A DNA stretch of 34,153 bases. Source: Hyphomicrobiales bacterium. Lineage in GTDB: Bacteria; Pseudomonadota; Alphaproteobacteria; Rhizobiales; Xanthobacteraceae. Each line of letters starts with the position of its first letter. Position 1 is the first letter of the stretch. Shown here piece by piece: positions 1 through 7,535 of the stretch. Where the stretch lies: assembly GCA_016210825.1 (NCBI GenBank), contig JACQTM010000058.1:1-34153 (forward strand), read 5' to 3'. The position numbers and the translations under genes are program-made. The notes under the pieces are model-generated. The model was not told where the DNA came from. It ran no database searches and worked only from the letters and a program-made list of their open reading frames with translations.

Positions 1-230
1 GTGTTTGAGGCTTGCTCCGTGTTCGCCCCCGGTGGACACAGGGTTCCTATCCACCGCTAGTGCCCGGACCGCACTCCAGGCGGGATGCCACGGCTTGGGC
101 CTCCACGAACGCGCTGCGTCGGCAACGCGCCCATGGCCACCGCCTCCCACCCCACGCCGCGTGACGAGCGCTTAACGTCCCCGGTAGCCGGGGCGGGATC
201 ATGTGAATATAATCCTAGATCGCGGCGGGA
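1..230. other. Left-edge stretch with no recognised gene
   Basis: No reading frame here looks like a real protein; the open frames are short and low-complexity. A small hairpin, CCCCGG-TAG-CCGGGG at 179-193, lies just past the merR stop. It could help end merR transcription, but no T-run follows it in the merR direction. Nothing else is recognised. The far left could be the edge of an element lying outside the window, but this cannot be shown from here. Confidence 0.4.
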
Positions 231-695
231 TTATGACGGGCGAATTCCCGATCGCCCGCGCGGCCGCGGCGTGCGCGCGGTGTCGAGAACGTCGAGCACC
301 GGGCAATCCGGCGCCGTCTTGCCGGTGCAGCGCGCGACCGTGCGCGACAGCAGGCGTTCGAGCTTGCCGAGGTCGGACATTTTCGCGCGGATGTCGTGAA
401 GGTGACGCGTGGCGATCTTGCGGACGTCGCCGCACGACGCCTTGCCCGGTCCGCCAAGGTCGAGCAGCGCACGAATCTCAACGAGATTGAAGCCGAGTTC
501 ACGCGCGCGGCGGATGAAGGCGAGAATGCGAACGTCGTCCCGGCCGTAGAGCCTATGGCCGCCTTCGGTGCGGCGCGGTGCGGCGAGCAGCTTGATGCGT
601 TCGTAATAGCGGATCGTCTCGATATTCACGCCGGACAATCGGGATAACTCACCGATCGGCAACCCTAGCGCTCGCGAAGCCGTGATCGGGGCCAT
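231..695 (-). CDS. merR: MerR, mercury-responsive transcriptional regulator
   Basis: A 154-residue MerR-family regulator. The N-terminal winged helix-turn-helix runs from about residue 12 to 80 (IGELSRLSGVNIETIRYYE, then GGHRLY). A dimerisation helix and a C-terminal metal-binding loop follow. Three cysteines at 88, 123 and 131 match in spacing the three Hg(II)-binding cysteines of classical MerR (82, 117, 126), which separates it from copper, zinc and redox paralogues. The ATG at 695 was chosen because it gives the usual family N-terminus; an upstream in-frame start at 782 would run through the operator. It is divergent from merT with the operator between them. By analogy with the family it represses without mercury and activates merTPFA when mercury is bound. 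A short Arg/Pro-rich tail ends the protein. Confidence 0.93.
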   Translation of the reverse strand: MAPITASRALGLPIGELSRLSGVNIETIRYYERIKLLAAPRRTEGGHRLYGRDDVRILAFIRRARELGFNLVEIRALLDLGGPGKASCGDVRKIATRHLHDIRAKMSDLGKLERLLSRTVARCTGKTAPDCPVLDVLDTARTPRPRGRSGIRPS

Positions 696-706
696 GCGGA
701 ATATCC

Positions 707-737
707 TTGATCCTGTAGCGGCTACAGGATGCACGAT
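707..737 (+). promoter_or_regulatory. mer operator/promoter (MerR binding site)
   Basis: A perfect inverted repeat, ATCCTGTAGC-G-GCTACAGGAT, lies at 710-730 between divergent merR and merT. A -35-like TTGATC (707-712) overlaps its left end. A -10-like CACGAT (732-737) follows 19 bp later, giving the over-long spacer typical of promoters that MerR proteins activate by DNA distortion. The merT start is 32 bp downstream. The palindrome is certain from the sequence; the exact promoter hexamers are inferred. Confidence 0.85.
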
Positions 738-768
738 AGTCCCAATCACGATCAAGGAGAATGACCGC

Positions 769-1182
769 ATGAGCGATCTCATTCATTCGGCCGATACAAC
801 CCGGGATTTGCCGCTTAGCGCGTCGGGTACGATCGGCGGACGGCAAAAGTTGGCCGCAATTGGCGGCATTCTCGGCGCGCTTGCCGCATCGTCCTGCTGC
901 ATCCTGCCAATCGTGCTGTTCAGTCTAGGCGTCAGCGGGGCGTGGATCGGAAAATTCACCGTGCTTGCGCCCTATCAGCCGTACTTCATCGCCGCGACCG
1001 TGGCGTTCCTTGGCTATGGTTACTGGCTCGTCTACCGCGCGTCGAAAGTCGTCTGCGCCGGCGGCGAAGCCTGTGCGCGGCCGGTGCCGAACCGGCTGGT
1101 CATGACCACGCTCGTCCTCGCGACGCTGCTCGTCGTTGCCGCGCTCGGGTTCAATCTCGTCGCGCCCTATCTCTTCGCATGA
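769..1182 (+). CDS. merT: MerT, inner-membrane mercuric ion transporter
   Basis: A 137-residue inner-membrane protein that carries Hg(II) from periplasmic MerP into the cytoplasm. Three hydrophobic segments are visible at about 28-55, 70-90 and 108-134. The first contains the vicinal pair Cys43-Cys44 (SSCCILP), the signature of MerT. A second pair, Cys96 and Cys102, lies in the loop between helices 2 and 3 with the same six-residue spacing as Tn501 MerT (76/82). The N-terminus is about 20 residues longer than classical MerT. The ATG at 769 was chosen because AGGAG at 755-759 precedes it at normal spacing and it lies just downstream of the operator. It is the first gene of the operon, 17 bp before merP. 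Confidence 0.95.
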   Translation: MSDLIHSADTTRDLPLSASGTIGGRQKLAAIGGILGALAASSCCILPIVLFSLGVSGAWIGKFTVLAPYQPYFIAATVAFLGYGYWLVYRASKVVCAGGEACARPVPNRLVMTTLVLATLLVVAALGFNLVAPYLFA

Positions 1183-1199
1183 TGAATGGAGACACGCAG

Positions 1200-1484
1200 A
1201 TGACCAAGTTGCTCACCTCCGCGGCCTTTGGTCTTGGCCTCCTGGCTTCGCCGGCGGCAATCGCGGGCGAGAAAACCGTCACGCTTGCGGTGCAGAACAT
1301 GTTCTGCGCGGCGTGCCCGCAAATCGTCCAGAAAAGCCTCGAAGCCGTGCCCGGCGTCGCCAAGGTTGCCGTGTCCTACAAGGAAAAGACCGCAGTCGTA
1401 ACCTTTGACGACAGCAAGGCCGACGTGAAGGCGCTCACCGCCGCGACCACGAATGCCGGCTATCCGTCGGCGCCAAGGAGCTAG
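1200..1484 (+). CDS. merP: MerP, periplasmic mercury-binding protein
   Basis: A 94-residue exported protein. A signal peptide (about residues 1-22, ending near PAAIAG) is followed by a single heavy-metal-associated domain. The metal site is NMFCAACP with Cys36 and Cys39, equivalent to the GMTCAAC motif of the family; Phe replaces the usual Thr before the first Cys. In the family this protein binds Hg(II) in the periplasm and hands it to MerT. The start at ATG 1200 has GGAG just upstream (about 1188-1191) and gives a clean signal sequence. A longer start within the overlapping frame would pass through merT and was rejected. merF follows after 7 bp. Confidence 0.94.
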   Translation: MTKLLTSAAFGLGLLASPAAIAGEKTVTLAVQNMFCAACPQIVQKSLEAVPGVAKVAVSYKEKTAVVTFDDSKADVKALTAATTNAGYPSAPRS

Positions 1485-1491
1485 TTACACC

Positions 1492-1743
1492 ATGAACGAC
1501 CGCGCACTCATCGGAACCGGCGGCGTTGGCGCAACCATTGCGGCGATCTGCTGTGTGACGCCGATCCTCGCAATTACATTTGGCGCGCTCGGCCTTACAG
1601 CTTGGCTCTCCATTGCCGATTACGTGGTGATTCCGGCACTGATTATCTGCCTCGGACTGGTTGGCTTCGGGCTCTATCGGCGACGCGCAGCGATGCAAGC
1701 TTGTTGCGATCCGACCGTTCCCAAGCAGGTGACCAGGCCATGA
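1492..1743 (+). CDS. merF: MerF, small mercuric ion transporter
   Basis: An 83-residue inner-membrane protein with two transmembrane helices (about 10-33 and 43-64). It carries the two vicinal cysteine pairs diagnostic of MerF: Cys20-Cys21 in helix 1 (ICCVTP) and Cys71-Cys72 near the C-terminus. Family knowledge assigns it to Hg(II) uptake, with metal passing between the pairs toward MerA. The start at ATG 1492 gives the canonical length; an upstream in-frame ATG at 1453 lies inside merP. Its TGA overlaps the merA ATG (ATGA at 1740-1743), so the two are probably translationally coupled. MerT and MerF together mean two Hg transporters in the operon. Confidence 0.93.
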   Translation: MNDRALIGTGGVGATIAAICCVTPILAITFGALGLTAWLSIADYVVIPALIICLGLVGFGLYRRRAAMQACCDPTVPKQVTRP

Positions 1744-3167
1744 GCGATTGTTGTGTGCCAAATAACAACGGCAAGGGCTACGATCTGGCGGTCATAGGCG
1801 CCGGCTCGGCCGGGTTCTCGGCCGCAATCACGGCAGCGGAGCAGGGCGCGCAGGTGGCGCTGATCGGCCACGGCACCATTGGCGGTACCTGCGTGAATAT
1901 CGGCTGCGTGCCGTCGAAGACGTTAATCCGCGCCGTCGAAACGCTGCATCAGGCAAACACTGCTGGCCGCTTCGCCGGCATTTCAGCGAGGGCGCGCGCC
2001 AACGATTGGGCCGCGCTCGTACACCAGAAAGACGAGCTCGTTGCCGAATTGCGGCAGTCGAAATACGCCGATCTTTTGCCGGCCTACAACGGCATTAGCT
2101 ACATCGAAGGGCAGGCGCGACTGGCCGAAGGCGGCGTTGCCTTGAACCGCGACCTGATCAGGACGGGACGCGTCGTCATCACCACCGGCGCACGGCCGGC
2201 TTTGCCAGCCATCCCCGGTATCGAGGATGTGGAGTATCTGACCAGCACGTCCGCGCTTGCGCTCGAAACGCTGCCGAAATCGCTGCTGGTCGTCGGCGGT
2301 GGCTTCATCGGCGCGGAGCTCGCGCAGATGTTCGCCCGGATGGGTGTGAAAGTTACGATCGTCTGCCGCAGCAAGCTCTTGCCGGCAGCGGAACCGGAGA
2401 TCGCGGAGGCGTTGTCGAAGTACCTGCAAGATGAAGGTATCAAACTGGTTTGCGGCATCACGTACGAGCGCATTAAATACACTGATAACGGTGTCTCTCT
2501 CATCGTACGAGAAGGCACGCGCGAGATGATGCTAGATGCTGAACGCGTTCTGATCGCGACCGGCCGCGCGCCGAACGTCGAGGGGCTCGGTCTCAAAGAT
2601 GCCGGAATTGCGCAAGCGCCGAACGGCGGCATTAAAGTCGACGACCGGATGCGTACAACGCGGCCCGGTATTTATGCGGCGGGCGACGTAACCGGCAGCG
2701 ATCAGTTCGTCTACATGGCCGCCTATGGCGCCAAGATCGCCGCAAAGAATGCCCTCAATAGCAACAGCCTGCGCTACGACAATTCCGCCATGCCGGCTGT
2801 CGTATTCACCGACCCTCAAGTGGCGAGCGTCGGCTTGACTGAGGCTGCAGCCCGCGCTGCGTTCCATCATGTGCGGGCCTCGGTGCTGCCGCTGAGCTAC
2901 CTGCCTCGCGCGTTGGCCGCGCGCGATACGCGCGGGCTGATCAAGCTCGTCGCCGAGACCGGCAGCGGCAAATTGCTCGGCGCGCATATTCTGGCACCCG
3001 AGGGCGCGGATTCGATCCAGACCGCCGCGCTGGCGATCAAACACGGCATGACGGTGCAGGATCTCGGCGCGACCATCTTCCCGTATCTGACGACGGTTGA
3101 AGGGTTGAAACTTGCGGCGCAAACCTTCGACAAGGACGTGGCAAAGCTTTCGTGTTGCGCGGGGTGA
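1740..3167 (+). CDS. merA: MerA, mercuric reductase (form without NmerA domain)
   Basis: A 475-residue FAD- and NADPH-dependent flavoprotein that reduces Hg(II) to volatile Hg(0). An FAD-binding GAGSAG lies at 20-25. The redox disulfide GGTCVNIGCVPSK has Cys51 and Cys56. A second Rossmann motif (VVGGGFIGAELA) marks the NADPH site, and AAGDVTG is the second FAD contact. The vicinal Cys472-Cys473 near the C-terminus (LSCCAG) are the Hg-acceptor cysteines that separate MerA from dihydrolipoamide dehydrogenase. The N-terminal heavy-metal domain of many MerA proteins is absent; only a Cys4-Cys5 pair precedes the catalytic core. The start at 1740 overlaps the merF stop; an upstream in-frame start at 1602 would overlap merF deeply. 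Confidence 0.96.
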   Translation: MSDCCVPNNNGKGYDLAVIGAGSAGFSAAITAAEQGAQVALIGHGTIGGTCVNIGCVPSKTLIRAVETLHQANTAGRFAGISARARANDWAALVHQKDELVAELRQSKYADLLPAYNGISYIEGQARLAEGGVALNRDLIRTGRVVITTGARPALPAIPGIEDVEYLTSTSALALETLPKSLLVVGGGFIGAELAQMFARMGVKVTIVCRSKLLPAAEPEIAEALSKYLQDEGIKLVCGITYERIKYTDNGVSLIVREGTREMMLDAERVLIATGRAPNVEGLGLKDAGIAQAPNGGIKVDDRMRTTRPGIYAAGDVTGSDQFVYMAAYGAKIAAKNALNSNSLRYDNSAMPAVVFTDPQVASVGLTEAAARAAFHHVRASVLPLSYLPRALAARDTRGLIKLVAETGSGKLLGAHILAPEGADSIQTAALAIKHGMTVQDLGATIFPYLTTVEGLKLAAQTFDKDVAKLSCCAG

Positions 3168-3177
3168 GAGGAGCACA

Positions 3178-3432
3178 ATGAATACGGGCGACAAGGTGTT
3201 GGCGCTGCTTGGAGTAAAGGTCATCTGTTGCGGCCTGCTCATCCTCGCTGCGACCGGCGCGCTCGGCGGCGTTGGGGCTTGGTTGATTGACGGCTCCGGC
3301 CGGTGGCTCCTCGCTGGCGCGTTTGTTGCAGCCATTGCGGCGATTATTCTCGGCAAGCGCGACCGCATTGTCACGCACGAGCAGCAAGCCGCGGCGCACG
3401 CCAATATCGAGAATAAGAAGCGTGCGGGCTAG
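3178..3432 (+). CDS. Two-helix membrane protein with vicinal Cys pair, mer-linked
   Basis: An 84-residue protein not recognised by name. It starts 10 bp after merA behind a GAGAGGAG-type ribosome site, so it is almost certainly in the same transcript. Two hydrophobic helices are seen (about 9-36 and 42-60), followed by a charged tail. The first helix contains a vicinal Cys-Cys (VKVICCGLLILA), the arrangement MerT and MerF use to accept Hg(II) within the membrane. Unlike MerF there is no second Cys pair. The inference is a small mercury-transport or mercury-relay protein; it does not look like MerC, MerE or MerH as I know those families. A general small membrane protein with incidental cysteines remains possible. 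Confidence 0.75.
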   Translation: MNTGDKVLALLGVKVICCGLLILAATGALGGVGAWLIDGSGRWLLAGAFVAAIAAIILGKRDRIVTHEQQAAAHANIENKKRAG

Positions 3433-3441
3433 GGGGCCGTC

Positions 3442-3672
3442 ATGCGGCTTTGGTCTCGAAATCCTTGGTCGGTGTATGGCCTGATGATCGTTGGACTTAT
3501 TCTCGTCATCGAGCCCGCGCTGCCTTGGTATCACTTCTCGCTGTTTTGGTTTTCGCTTGGGATCATCGCTGTGGCTATCGCGTTATATGACCTGCTCCGT
3601 AAGTCTTCGTGGGCGCGCGCCAACGAGCAGAGCACGCCAACAGGCGGAGCAAATGACAAAGGAAAACGATGA
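3442..3672 (+). CDS. Small two-helix membrane protein, unknown
   Basis: A 76-residue protein of unknown function. Two hydrophobic helices (about 11-28 and 32-51) are joined by a short turn containing Pro-Trp-Tyr-His, and a polar, Gly/Asn-rich C-terminal tail follows. There is no cysteine, so direct mercury binding as in MerT is unlikely. It begins 9 bp after the preceding gene, and its TGA overlaps the next ATG (ATGA at 3669-3672), which strongly supports co-transcription and coupled translation with the DUF3237 gene. The product may be an accessory or scaffold membrane protein of the module, but the sequence does not say more. Confidence 0.65.
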   Translation: MRLWSRNPWSVYGLMIVGLILVIEPALPWYHFSLFWFSLGIIAVAIALYDLLRKSSWARANEQSTPTGGANDKGKR

Positions 3673-4121
3673 CGAACGAGAAGTATGGTGCGTTCGATTA
3701 CTTGTTCTCGCTGGAACTTAATTACAGGGGTCCGGTGGAATTGGCTCCGATCGGTGGGAAAAATGCCACCCTTATTGGCGGCGGCGATGGAACGGTGGAC
3801 GGTCCCAGCATCTGCGGGACCGTTCGCTGGTCAAACTATGAGACGACCGGTGACGACATGGTCTGTGATTTGCAAGTGCCAGGAATAATCGAGACGCAAG
3901 ATGGCGCCGAGATTCGTTTCGAGGGCCGCGAATATGCGATGCCGCTCGCGAACGGGCGTAAGCAGTGGAAAATTGTGGGCGTCATGCGATTCAAGACCGA
4001 CGACCAGCGCTACCAATGGTTAAACGAGACCTTTGCCGTCACCAGCGGAGCGTTCGACTACGACACCGGACGGGCTCGCTGGCAGGCTTATATTCCGAGC
4101 GGCGCAGCGCCAATCCCTTGA
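3669..4121 (+). CDS. DUF3237 family protein
   Basis: A 150-residue soluble protein without signal peptide or membrane segment. The pattern matches the DUF3237 family: an N-terminal strand (FDYLFSLELNYRGPVEL), a central stretch on the theme GGGDGTVDGPSICGTVRWS, and the C-terminal YQWLNETFAVTSGAFDYDTG, where the family usually has Y-x-W-L-N followed by a strand and turn. Family members are small single-domain proteins of no established activity. It overlaps the preceding small membrane gene by 4 bp and is followed 20 bp later by the Cys-rich membrane gene, inside what looks like one mer transcript. Linkage to mer genes is unusual in my knowledge. Function is unknown. Confidence 0.8.
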   Translation: MTNEKYGAFDYLFSLELNYRGPVELAPIGGKNATLIGGGDGTVDGPSICGTVRWSNYETTGDDMVCDLQVPGIIETQDGAEIRFEGREYAMPLANGRKQWKIVGVMRFKTDDQRYQWLNETFAVTSGAFDYDTGRARWQAYIPSGAAPIP

Positions 4122-4141
4122 CGATTTCGGACGAGCCCGTC

Positions 4142-4510
4142 ATGACGAACACACTCTCACGCTCTCGCGATTGGGTCGGCAGCGCGCGCGGCTATGGGTT
4201 GGCGTGGGGGCTTCCCCTTGCCGCGATTGTGGCGGGGTTGCTCGTCGATGTACCAGCGCGAACGGTGATCTGGATCATCGCGCTTGTCTGGATGGGCACG
4301 GCCTGCCTGCTCAATGCGCGGCGCTGCGGGCGCACCCATTGCCGGTTCACCGGGCCGTATTACCTAGTGATGATTCTTCCGGTGCTCGTACTTGGCTTCG
4401 GAATTGTTGCCGCCAACATTTACGGTTGGATTGCGCTGGCGGTCCTAATCGTTCTCGGCAGTAAGATAGTCTGGTGGGCGACCGAGCGGGCGTGGGGCAA
4501 ATTCTCCTGA
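4142..4510 (+). CDS. Cys-rich membrane protein, last gene of mer cluster
   Basis: A 122-residue membrane protein with four likely helices (about 17-34, 38-54, 70-90 and 92-112). Between helices 2 and 3 lies the cluster ACLLNARRCGRTHCRFTGPYY, holding three cysteines and a histidine next to the membrane. This looks like a metal or redox site. The start at ATG 4142 follows the DUF3237 stop by 20 bp; longer in-frame starts would overlap that gene. No family name is recognised with confidence, though the compact CGRxHCxxTGP pattern looks like a conserved signature rather than chance. Its position as last gene after merA suggests a role in mercury handling, by inference only. No terminator is visible in the 26 bp before the convergent gene's stop. 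Confidence 0.72.
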   Translation: MTNTLSRSRDWVGSARGYGLAWGLPLAAIVAGLLVDVPARTVIWIIALVWMGTACLLNARRCGRTHCRFTGPYYLVMILPVLVLGFGIVAANIYGWIALAVLIVLGSKIVWWATERAWGKFS

Positions 4511-4536
4511 CCTCGAATAAACGCGTTGCTGCGCTT

Positions 4537-5322
4537 TCAGTTGGGAAAATTTTCCGCAATTGCCTCCAGCACCGCCAATGACGCGGCGGTGCCGTCGGCT
4601 TCGCCTTTTTCGAAATCGTCGCCCGCCCGTCCCATCGTGTTGGTGACATGGGCGAGGCAGAGGATTTTCACGCCCGCCGTTCGTGCGAACGTATAGAGCG
4701 CGGCGGCCTCCATCTCGACGGCGAGCACATTTTTCGATTTCGCCAATTCGATCGCGGCAGCCGTTTCGCGGAACGGCGCATCGGTGGTCCAACTTGCGCC
4801 GACGATCGCATGAAGCTTTTTCGCCGCGAGCGCATCACGTGCCGCGGCAACCAGTTGCGGGTCGGCCGTGGCGAATTCGCCCGCGTTCGCGGGCGCGTAG
4901 TGATAGCTCGTGCCCTCGTCGCGCAGCGCACGGTCGATGATGACGAAATAGGGCGGCGGTCCGGCAGCGACGATCTGCCCCGCCGAGGTCAAACTCACAA
5001 GCAGCTTGCAACCGCTCGCGAACAATTCCTCGGCGATCAGCACGGCGAAGGGCGCGCCGACGGCGCAGCCGATAATGCCGGCGGTCTTCCCCGCTAGCGT
5101 GAAGGTATCGAGCTCGGTGTGATAGCAGGGCCAGGCGTCGAATATTTTCGCCTGTCCGGTTTGGCGCAGCCGGCGCACGATATCTCCATCGGGATCGAGA
5201 ATGCACAGCGGCGGCACGTCGATTGCGGCAATGCCCTTTTGCCGCCGCGCCTCGCGCAGCAATGCCTTCGGCGCAAACACCGAGGGCGCGGAATGGTCTT
5301 TGTTGTCGAGAATGGGCGGCAC
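4537..5322 (-). CDS. Nucleoside phosphorylase (PNP/UDP family)
   Basis: A 261-residue cytoplasmic enzyme of the PNP_UDP_1 superfamily, which cleaves a nucleoside with phosphate to a base and ribose-1-phosphate. Seen are the internal GIIGCAVGAPFAVLIAEEL segment, the SLTSAGQI loop, and the late motif AVEMEAAALYTFA, whose Glu-Met-Glu binds the ribose in this family. The overall shape resembles uridine phosphorylases more than MTA phosphorylases; the substrate cannot be fixed by eye. The start is GTG at 5322, 5 bp after the stop of the methyltransferase gene, so the two form an operon. It is convergent with the mer cluster. No ATG gives a better N-terminus. Confidence 0.8.
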   Translation of the reverse strand: MPPILDNKDHSAPSVFAPKALLREARRQKGIAAIDVPPLCILDPDGDIVRRLRQTGQAKIFDAWPCYHTELDTFTLAGKTAGIIGCAVGAPFAVLIAEELFASGCKLLVSLTSAGQIVAAGPPPYFVIIDRALRDEGTSYHYAPANAGEFATADPQLVAAARDALAAKKLHAIVGASWTTDAPFRETAAAIELAKSKNVLAVEMEAAALYTFARTAGVKILCLAHVTNTMGRAGDDFEKGEADGTAASLAVLEAIAENFPN

Positions 5323-5327
5323 GGTTG

Positions 5328-5933
5328 TCAGGATGGTAAGCGTTCGAACACAGCGGCATAGTGGTAGGGCGGCACTTCGACAAGCTGTAACAGGCGCAAG
5401 CCCCCAGCCTCGACGGCGTCGATGGTCTGCTCTGGCGATAGCCGCAAGTCCGTTCGCGGTCCGCGCGGCTCACCCAGGATCACCGTCTCCTCGCGCGGCC
5501 GCTGATGCCAATTAACGATGGCGAATTTACCGCCCGGCGCGAGCGCCGCCTTAACCGCGCGCGCGAGGCGCGACTTGTCGGGAACACCGTGAAAGGCGTT
5601 GGCGAGAAAAATAAAATCGGCCGGCTGCTTGAGAAGTTTGTCAACGTTATACGCATCGTCTTCGACATAATCGCAATTCGACAGGCCGCTTTCGGCGAGA
5701 CGATGGCGCGCTACGTCGAGCAGCTTGCCGTCGATGTCGATGGCCGTAACGCGGCGCGCGACTCTCGCGATCTGTAATGTGAACCAGCCGTCGCCGGAGC
5801 AAAGATCGACCACATTCATGCCGGGCGCGATACCGGCGGCCGCCAGCACGCCGGCCGGATCGGGAAACAGCGCCTCCCACCAGCCGGCGGTCGGCATTTC
5901 GGTACCTTCGAAGAAACCGGGTGGATGGGTCAT
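5328..5933 (-). CDS. SAM-dependent methyltransferase (class I)
   Basis: A 201-residue class I methyltransferase. Motif I, VVDLCSGDGWFT at about 41-52, forms the glycine-rich SAM loop. VTAIDID supplies the acidic residue after strand 2, and the following segments (YVEDDAYNV, ADFIFLANAFHGV, LAPGGKFAIVNWH) match motifs II to post-III. The acceptor substrate is unknown; no arsenite-methyltransferase cysteine set is present. ATG 5933 was chosen over an in-frame TTG at 5963, which would add ten residues lacking any family pattern. It is co-directional with, and 5 bp upstream of, the nucleoside phosphorylase. Proximity to mer genes may be coincidental. Confidence 0.8.
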   Translation of the reverse strand: MTHPPGFFEGTEMPTAGWWEALFPDPAGVLAAAGIAPGMNVVDLCSGDGWFTLQIARVARRVTAIDIDGKLLDVARHRLAESGLSNCDYVEDDAYNVDKLLKQPADFIFLANAFHGVPDKSRLARAVKAALAPGGKFAIVNWHQRPREETVILGEPRGPRTDLRLSPEQTIDAVEAGGLRLLQLVEVPPYHYAAVFERLPS

Positions 5934-6030
5934 CTGTGTCGCGCAGTAAAAGATTGGTGGCAATCGCCGGGCTCTCTAGCACATCGGCGATCTGCGCGAT
6001 CTCACATTGGCGGGATGATCCGCGCGGTAG

Positions 6031-6189
6031 CTTCATGTTTCCCCTCTCCCCTTGTGGGAGAGGGTGTCCGAGCCGCGCGAGCGGCGAGGGCGGGTGAGGG
6101 GTTGTCTTCGAAAGAGTCTTGCGAAGCGACCCCCTCACCTGGCTCGTGCTTCGCACTCGCCACCCTCTCCCACGAGGGGAGAGGTGAAG
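6031..6189. repeat. Long imperfect palindromic intergenic repeat
   Basis: The left arm CCCCTCTCCC... (6041-6066) and the right arm ending ...GGGGAGAGGTGAAG (about 6161-6189) are near-complementary over some 28 bases. They enclose secondary hairpins, so most of the 159 bp can fold back on itself. This CCTCTCCC/GGGAGAGG type of element is a familiar dispersed repeat in Bradyrhizobium-like genomes. It sits between the methyltransferase start and the 3' end of a small hypothetical gene, in non-coding sequence. Copy number cannot be judged from this window. Confidence 0.8.
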
Positions 6190-6213
6190 TGAGGTTGGAG
6201 CGAAGTCGCGGCG

Positions 6214-6417
6214 TCACGCCTCCGATGGGCGCTTGCGGCGATTTTGTGTGAGTTTTTTATCCTTAACGCGCGTAGCGATTTCGCCCGGCTGTGTATCGGC
6301 AGATTTCTTGTCTCCGCCGAGTAATGCCGCGAAAAAACCCAGCTCCTCACTTCGAGCGCGCACGCGTTCCACCAGTGCATCAATAATGCTGATCGGAGGC
6401 TTGTCGCTTGGATTCAT
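6214..6417 (-). CDS. Small hypothetical protein
   Basis: A 67-residue protein of unknown function. The N-terminal half (PPISIIDALVERVRARSEELGFF) looks like an amphipathic helix and the C-terminal third is Lys/Arg-rich. No cysteine, membrane helix or signal is present. ATG 6417 was chosen over an in-frame start at 6462; a GGGTGG about 5 bp upstream could serve as a weak ribosome site. It stands alone, divergent from fabD, with its 3' end 24 bp from the palindromic repeat. Codon composition is plausible for a gene, but a chance frame in GC-rich DNA cannot be excluded. Confidence 0.4.
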   Translation of the reverse strand: MNPSDKPPISIIDALVERVRARSEELGFFAALLGGDKKSADTQPGEIATRVKDKKLTQNRRKRPSEA

Positions 6418-6590
6418 GATCCACCCGTCCCAAGACTGAATTATTGTCGCGCTCCGGACCATAATACCAGCCCATTAGTTGCTGTTTTTTTGTGCTTTTT
6501 TCGGTCATACAGGCCCCCCCGATGAACGCCCATGGCTTGACACGGGGCGAAGGGGCAGTGTCTTTCGGCGCGATTTCGCGCAAGGACCCT

Positions 6591-7535
6591 ATGACGGCGG
6601 CATTCATCTTTCCCGGGCAGGGCAGCCAAGCGGTCGGCATGGGCAAGGCCATGGCGCAGGCGTTCGCGCCGGCGCGCGCGGTGTTCGATGAGGTTGATGC
6701 GGCGCTCGGCCAGAAGCTCTCGGCCATCATGTGGGAAGGCCCCGCCGAAACGCTGACGCTGACCGAGAACGCCCAGCCGGCCCTCATGGCGGCGTCGCTT
6801 GCGGTGATGCGCGTGCTCGAAGCCGAAGCCGGAGTCGATCTCAAACGCGATGCCAAATTCGTCGCCGGCCATTCGCTCGGCGAATATTCCGCGCTCGCCG
6901 CCGCGGGCGCACTCACGATTGCCGACACCGCGCGCCTCGTACGCACGCGCGGCCGCGCCATGCAGAAGGCGGTGCCGGTCGGCACCGGCGCAATGGCCGC
7001 GTTACTCGGTCTTGAATTCGACATCGCGGCGGCGGTGGCGCTGGAGGCGGCGCAAGGCCAGGTGTGCCAGGCGGCGAACGATAACGGTGGCGGGCAGGTG
7101 GTGATTTCCGGCAACAAGGCGGCGGTCGAGCGCGCGGTCGAGATCGCTAAAACTAAGGGCGCCAAACGCGCCATGCTTCTGCCGGTGTCCGCGCCCTTTC
7201 ATTGCGCGCTAATGCAACCCGCCGCCGATGTAATGGCGGAGGCGCTGTCGAAGGTGACGGTGAGCGCGCCAATCGTGCCGGTCGTCGCGAACGTGGTTGC
7301 GAAACCGATTTCCGACCCGAAGGACATTGTGCGTAATCTCGTCGCCCAGGTGACGGGTACCGTGCGCTGGCGCGAATGCGTGAGCTATATGGCGGGGCAG
7401 GGTGTGATGAAATTCTACGAAGTCGGATCGGGCAAGGTGCTCACCGGCCTCGTCAAGCGCATCGCCGATGGCGCCACGGGACAAGCCATCGGCACGCCGG
7501 ATGACGTTGTCGCATTCAAGGCCGCGCGCGGCTGA
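6591..7535 (+). CDS. fabD: FabD, malonyl-CoA:ACP transacylase
   Basis: A 314-residue cytoplasmic enzyme that moves malonyl groups from CoA to acyl carrier protein, supplying the extender unit for fatty-acid synthesis. FPGQGSQ at 7-13 is the N-terminal signature. The nucleophile Ser95 sits in GHSLGEYS, and His204 in PVSAPFHC is the catalytic histidine. The start is ATG 6591 with AAGGA at 6582-6586. An in-frame upstream start at 6492 would add 33 residues with no family counterpart. It is first in the series fabD-fabG-acpP-fabF, separated from fabG by an 81-bp gap holding a perfect hairpin. Confidence 0.97.
   Translation: MTAAFIFPGQGSQAVGMGKAMAQAFAPARAVFDEVDAALGQKLSAIMWEGPAETLTLTENAQPALMAASLAVMRVLEAEAGVDLKRDAKFVAGHSLGEYSALAAAGALTIADTARLVRTRGRAMQKAVPVGTGAMAALLGLEFDIAAAVALEAAQGQVCQAANDNGGGQVVISGNKAAVERAVEIAKTKGAKRAMLLPVSAPFHCALMQPAADVMAEALSKVTVSAPIVPVVANVVAKPISDPKDIVRNLVAQVTGTVRWRECVSYMAGQGVMKFYEVGSGKVLTGLVKRIADGATGQAIGTPDDVVAFKAARG

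Follow-up and report, generated by a model that had tools for sequence, protein, structure and literature searches.

A divergent, cysteine-bearing DUF3237 gene inside a mercury-resistance operon and its possible accessory role

A gene for a divergent DUF3237 protein of 150 residues (positions 3669 to 4121, plus strand) was found in a mercury-resistance (mer) operon of the 34,153-nucleotide stretch of DNA analysed here, hereafter the window. We assign a probability of about 0.45 to the explanation that this gene is a true member of the MerR-controlled operon and encodes an accessory protein; the figure covers the whole explanation, that is, membership, accessory barrel and mercury role together. 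The protein family, the operon layout, its single operator, the operator in front of a related gene in a second operon and the predicted fold are observed or computed. Our preferred inference from these is a rare accessory, a cytosolic lipocalin-like barrel that is co-expressed under MerR and probably handles mercurials or some other hydrophobic ligand. Few resistance systems have been studied as closely as mer operons, and proposals of new soluble components for them are rare.

The operon combines a mercuric reductase gene, a MerR-family regulator and transport genes in one tightly packed unit, in which a divergent merR is followed by merT, merP, merF, merA, sm84, sm76, the DUF3237 gene and sm122. 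The merR-like gene (231 to 695, minus strand) matched PF13411 and PF09278; its best NCBIfam model was MerR, at 116 bits, which is under that model's cut-off of 151. The genes that follow lie on the plus strand: merT, for an inner-membrane Hg(II) transporter (769 to 1182; PF02411, 85 bits); merP, for a periplasmic Hg(II)-binding protein (1200 to 1484; TIGR02052, 102 bits, cut-off 92.6); merF, for an Hg(II) transporter (1492 to 1743; NF033565, 71 bits, cut-off 50); and merA, for the reductase (1740 to 3167; TIGR02053, 550 bits, cut-off 454). The window MerA gave no PF00403 match for an N-terminal HMA domain, and no merB was found in the window operon. Between merR and merT, the first structural gene, lies a MerR-type operator/promoter dyad, TTGATCCTGTAGCGGCTACAGG (707 to 728, plus strand), the only such operator of the run. 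No chance matches are expected in the window, as shuffled sequence never gave one, and the pattern was present in 33 fetched loci, chiefly mer loci. The intergenic gaps from merA to sm122 are 10, 9, -4 and 20 nucleotides, with no terminators above chance expectation in this stretch, and no Rfam elements were found in window positions 1 to 6500. Past sm122 lie other units, a phosphorylase gene on the opposite strand and then fatty-acid synthesis (fab) genes.

The DUF3237 reading frame is intact, and its product, which has cysteines at positions 49 and 66, matched PF11578 in Pfam at 40 bits against a gathering cut-off of 24 (E = 4e-10). No transmembrane segment was predicted by hydropathy. The AlphaFold model (pLDDT 88.9) shows a closed beta-barrel of the kind solved for DUF3237 proteins, with 3g7g, 4pux and 3c5o as the best Foldseek matches (probability 1.00, TM 0.7-0.8); cyclase barrels such as PloI4 were a weaker fold match. 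An AAAGGA ribosome-binding site stands shortly 5' to the start codon, which overlaps the TGA of the 76-residue membrane ORF sm76 by 4 nucleotides, read as ATGA at 3669 to 3672. Two claims of the earlier note are thus borne out, that a DUF3237 protein is encoded within a mercury operon, here flanked by merR, merT, merP, merF and merA, and that its start overlaps the small membrane gene upstream. The note had also taken stoichiometric co-production to be likely; the overlap supports translational coupling but does not show equal stoichiometry.

Compared with DUF3237/UPF0311 proteins in general (PF11578; 3g7g, 4pux, 3c5o, 6jjs, 9m2y), the window protein shares the predicted barrel and the above-cut-off Pfam match, but it is far diverged. 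It is at most about 33% identical, over the whole alignment, to any DUF3237 member found, and its Pfam score of 40 bits compares with 130-160 for most ordinary members. It lacks GGADW and RHGPP, two segments shared by most of the aligned ordinary members, and carries C66, at a position where the ordinary members aligned have no cysteine; its gene sits in a mer operon. The view that DUF3237 has no established function is out of date, because PinX, which carries the domain, and its homologues PhcF and PhcG decarboxylate lignin-derived dimers (PMC12607616, PMC12997858). The two segments were used as a proxy for proteins of the PinX, PhcF and PhcG type and are found neither in the window protein nor in its relatives L142 and L143; the proxy was taken from most ordinary members in an alignment that left out PinX, PhcF and PhcG themselves.

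In the tree, the window protein groups with L142 and L143 as one clade (support 95/92), and all three have in common C66, G39-x-G41, W54 and E58 in window numbering. The L142 protein was the best match after the window itself in 347 genomes of the class (E = 1.3e-9). Its genome, G684, belongs to a different alphaproteobacterial family, and its gene lies in a mer operon unrelated to that of the window, in the order divergent merR, dyad, DUF3237-like gene, merB, merT, merP, merA and merF. The DUF3237-like gene is an intact ORF of 137 codons and the first gene of this operon; some 44 nucleotides 5' to its start is a dyad, CCTGTAG-N3-CTACAGG, as in the window. The adjoining merB was identified by PF03243 at 101 bits. 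Although the L142 protein is not recognised by Pfam and is only 27% identical to the window protein, DUF3237 crystal structures were the best matches to its model (TM 0.70), which was built from its own separate alignment that also held DUF3237 relatives. The two genes thus share the clade, the conserved Cys, GxG, W and E residues, a MerR-type operator and adjoining mer genes. They differ in place, L142 being first and the window gene near-last, and in company: the L142 operon has merB and no detected sm122, whereas the window operon has sm122 and no merB. L143 is near L142 in sequence and showed no mer linkage.

The linkage does not extend to the DUF3237 family as a whole. A merA relative above threshold was found in 33 of 300 genomes of the window's family, its own among them. 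Seventeen of the other 32 carry DUF3237 genes, at 21 loci after split pieces were merged; no locus is close to merA, and the shortest same-contig distance is about 45 kb. Fourteen further DUF3237 loci likewise had no mer relatives in their flanks (about 8 kb per side where the contig allows). The neighbourhood survey that the earlier note had proposed therefore leads us to reject a general tie to mercury, ordinary members being unlinked to mer genes at the loci examined. It leaves the tie standing for one divergent, cysteine-bearing clade, two of whose three known members are in mer operons. Besides the window, 1 of 39 DUF3237-type loci lies in a mer operon, against roughly 0.03-0.04 by chance if a mer operon is taken to be about 0.1% of a genome. 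Because the chance estimate is approximate and the clade was chosen after the fact, an association beyond chance is only suggestive.

Among mer operons the gene is very rare, its type having been seen twice, in the window and at L142. No relatives of the DUF3237 gene or of sm76 were present in 40 fetched merA regions, where the sole sm84 match was a weak one that overlapped merF in a single region, and no window-type DUF3237 gene was found in about 61 other mer loci. Plasmids gave no match either: a merA relative is present in 4508 of the 72,556 records searched, the DUF3237 gene in none. Searches for close relatives returned only weak matches in 398 genomes of the order (29-35% identity) and in the 300 family genomes (at most 36%), and none in plasmids, phages and viral contigs or in a single-sequence scan of genome contigs. 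Our literature search found no paper tying DUF3237 to mercury resistance, and the accessory names tabulated in a catalogue of 272 mer operons include no DUF3237 gene (PMC3466566). The catalogue's tabulated merB, merC, merD, merE, merF, merG and merH are optional, patchy accessory genes (PMC3466566), and the window gene is likewise optional and patchily distributed. MerG, described as altering permeability to phenylmercury, can be set beside the window protein by description only. Two genes of pMR68 that lie between merR and merT, orf4 and orf5, were considered, but orf5 is described as phosphoribosyl-AMP cyclohydrolase-like and orf4 as hypothetical, and no link was made.

The genes around the DUF3237 gene bear on its status. 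Immediately 3', sm122 (4142 to 4510, plus strand) encodes a membrane protein that is conserved in mer operons, carries the motif CGRTHC and has no significant Pfam or NCBIfam match. In a scan of named genomes, mer genes were directly 5' to its homologues in 21 of 25 fetched loci, with hosts that include Bradyrhizobium, Pseudolabrys, Sphingopyxis and Rhodospirillaceae, and annotated plasmids of Sphingopyxis and Shewanella likewise carry it in mer operons (the sm122 observations cover the window gene, L101-L125, L145 and L146). For these reasons sm122 is itself a mer gene. The DUF3237 gene therefore sits between two mer genes, merA and sm122, and is more than the operon's downstream neighbour. 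The sm122 homologue comes directly after merA in L047 and L050, two of the nearest operons, and the presence of sm84, sm76 and the DUF3237 gene between merA and sm122 in the window is most simply explained by insertion. As a widespread, uncharacterised mer gene, sm122 is better supported than any function for the DUF3237 protein.

The two genes 5' to the DUF3237 gene encode predicted two-helix membrane proteins. That of sm84 (3178 to 3432, plus strand) has a Cys-Cys pair in helix 1, placed as in MerF and MerT. Its likeness to MerF is local only (46% identity over 24 residues, E = 0.002 for one comparison), and no relatives were found in the 300 family genomes; going by its sequence, sm84 may add a further Hg(II) transporter to the operon, one without detectable relatives. 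The sm76 protein (3442 to 3672, plus strand) has no cysteine, and the same genomes gave one match, weak and doubtful. A mobile module of sm84, sm76 and the DUF3237 gene recurring elsewhere was considered and rejected, as neither sm84 nor sm76 has convincing relatives.

The case for an accessory mer protein is built on the tight packing, the ATGA overlap, the one MerR operator and the place between merA and sm122, together with the L142 gene behind an operator in a second mer operon, the 95/92 clade and the DUF3237-like L142 model. Against it stand the rarity of the gene in mer operons, the clade member L143 that is not mer-linked, the single cysteine conserved in the clade, where an Hg(II) site usually needs two, and the lack of merB in the window operon. 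If the accessory reading is right, Hg(II) would induce the DUF3237 gene together with merTPFA. The barrel would then take up a hydrophobic ligand, for which the most plausible candidates are organomercurials and mercurated thiols bound via C66, and would keep it or hand it on to reductase or lyase; alternatively, the barrel might catalyse a reaction of some compound that detoxification sets free. In many MerA proteins the HMA domain relays cytosolic Hg(II) to the active site, and since the window MerA lacks this domain there is room for a relay protein. The accessory protein would in that case be a new kind of mercurial-handling protein, with a barrel instead of an HMA domain. The broader proposal, which we put forward as a doubtful but real possibility, is that the cysteine-bearing DUF3237-fold clade is dedicated to mercury resistance, as a cytosolic, lipocalin-like carrier of organomercurials or an enzyme acting on them, and represents an undescribed, low-frequency mer gene of alphaproteobacteria. 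Were this clade to bind or process mercurials, one branch of a family that is largely uncharacterised would gain a function open to testing.

The main rival, and a serious alternative with a substantial chance of being correct, is that the gene is a passenger: sm76 and the DUF3237 gene would have arrived between merA and sm122 by chance insertion and would be co-transcribed without a mercury role. Base composition suggests a different origin or later arrival, GC3 being 0.60 in sm76 and 0.67 in the DUF3237 gene and 0.75-0.82 in merT, merP, merA and the fab genes, although merF is also low (0.64). The absence of the gene from the nearest mer operons and the consistent lack of mer linkage among the ordinary DUF3237 genes surveyed point the same way. 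A chance insertion accounts less well for the nearest relative by E-value, which lies in another mer operon, at another position, next to merB and with an operator in front, or for one mer-linked case in the survey when only a few hundredths were expected. We regard it as unlikely that the protein is an enzyme of the PinX, PhcF and PhcG kind, carrying out a decarboxylation, isomerisation or cyclisation of a small metabolite tied to organomercurial breakdown or a thiol cofactor. Known DUF3237 members are decarboxylases, the fold also resembles, more weakly, the cyclase barrels, and the L142 gene adjoins that for an organomercurial lyase; however, with the GGADW and RHGPP segments missing from the clade the ancestral active site may be lost, and no substrate can be proposed. 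That the mer linkage arose in metagenome assembly is very improbable. The window makes up an entire contig of a 401-contig alphaproteobacterial genome (3.0 Mb, 80% complete), but the reading frames run without a break, with the 4-nucleotide overlap inside the supposedly joined part, and beyond the DUF3237 gene comes sm122, itself a mer gene.

Several further features were seen in the course of the analysis. Both alpha- and gammaproteobacteria have sm122, and one of the plasmid mer operons that carry it adjoins a Tn3-family transposase gene. Three loci that have no merA close by encode, between merP (or a regulator) and sm122, a Cys-rich protein bearing the motif GDCCVxC (L107, 6687-6968; L112, 6613-6975; L123, around 6347-7369). 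The Pseudolabrys merRTPFA-sm122 operon was also present on three IMG/VR contigs classed as viral (L134, L136 and L138), and in L050 ParB-like and methyltransferase-like genes lie 3' to it; a prophage or some other mobile element may therefore carry this operon. The genome of L050 and L086, G515, has a second mer operon copy about 48 kb off, in which the merA match is only partial. In the window, a long imperfect palindrome on CCCTCTCCC/GGGAGAGGG lies at about 6035 to 6190, between a methyltransferase gene and the fab cluster, and by eye resembles a palindromic repeat of the rhizobial type.
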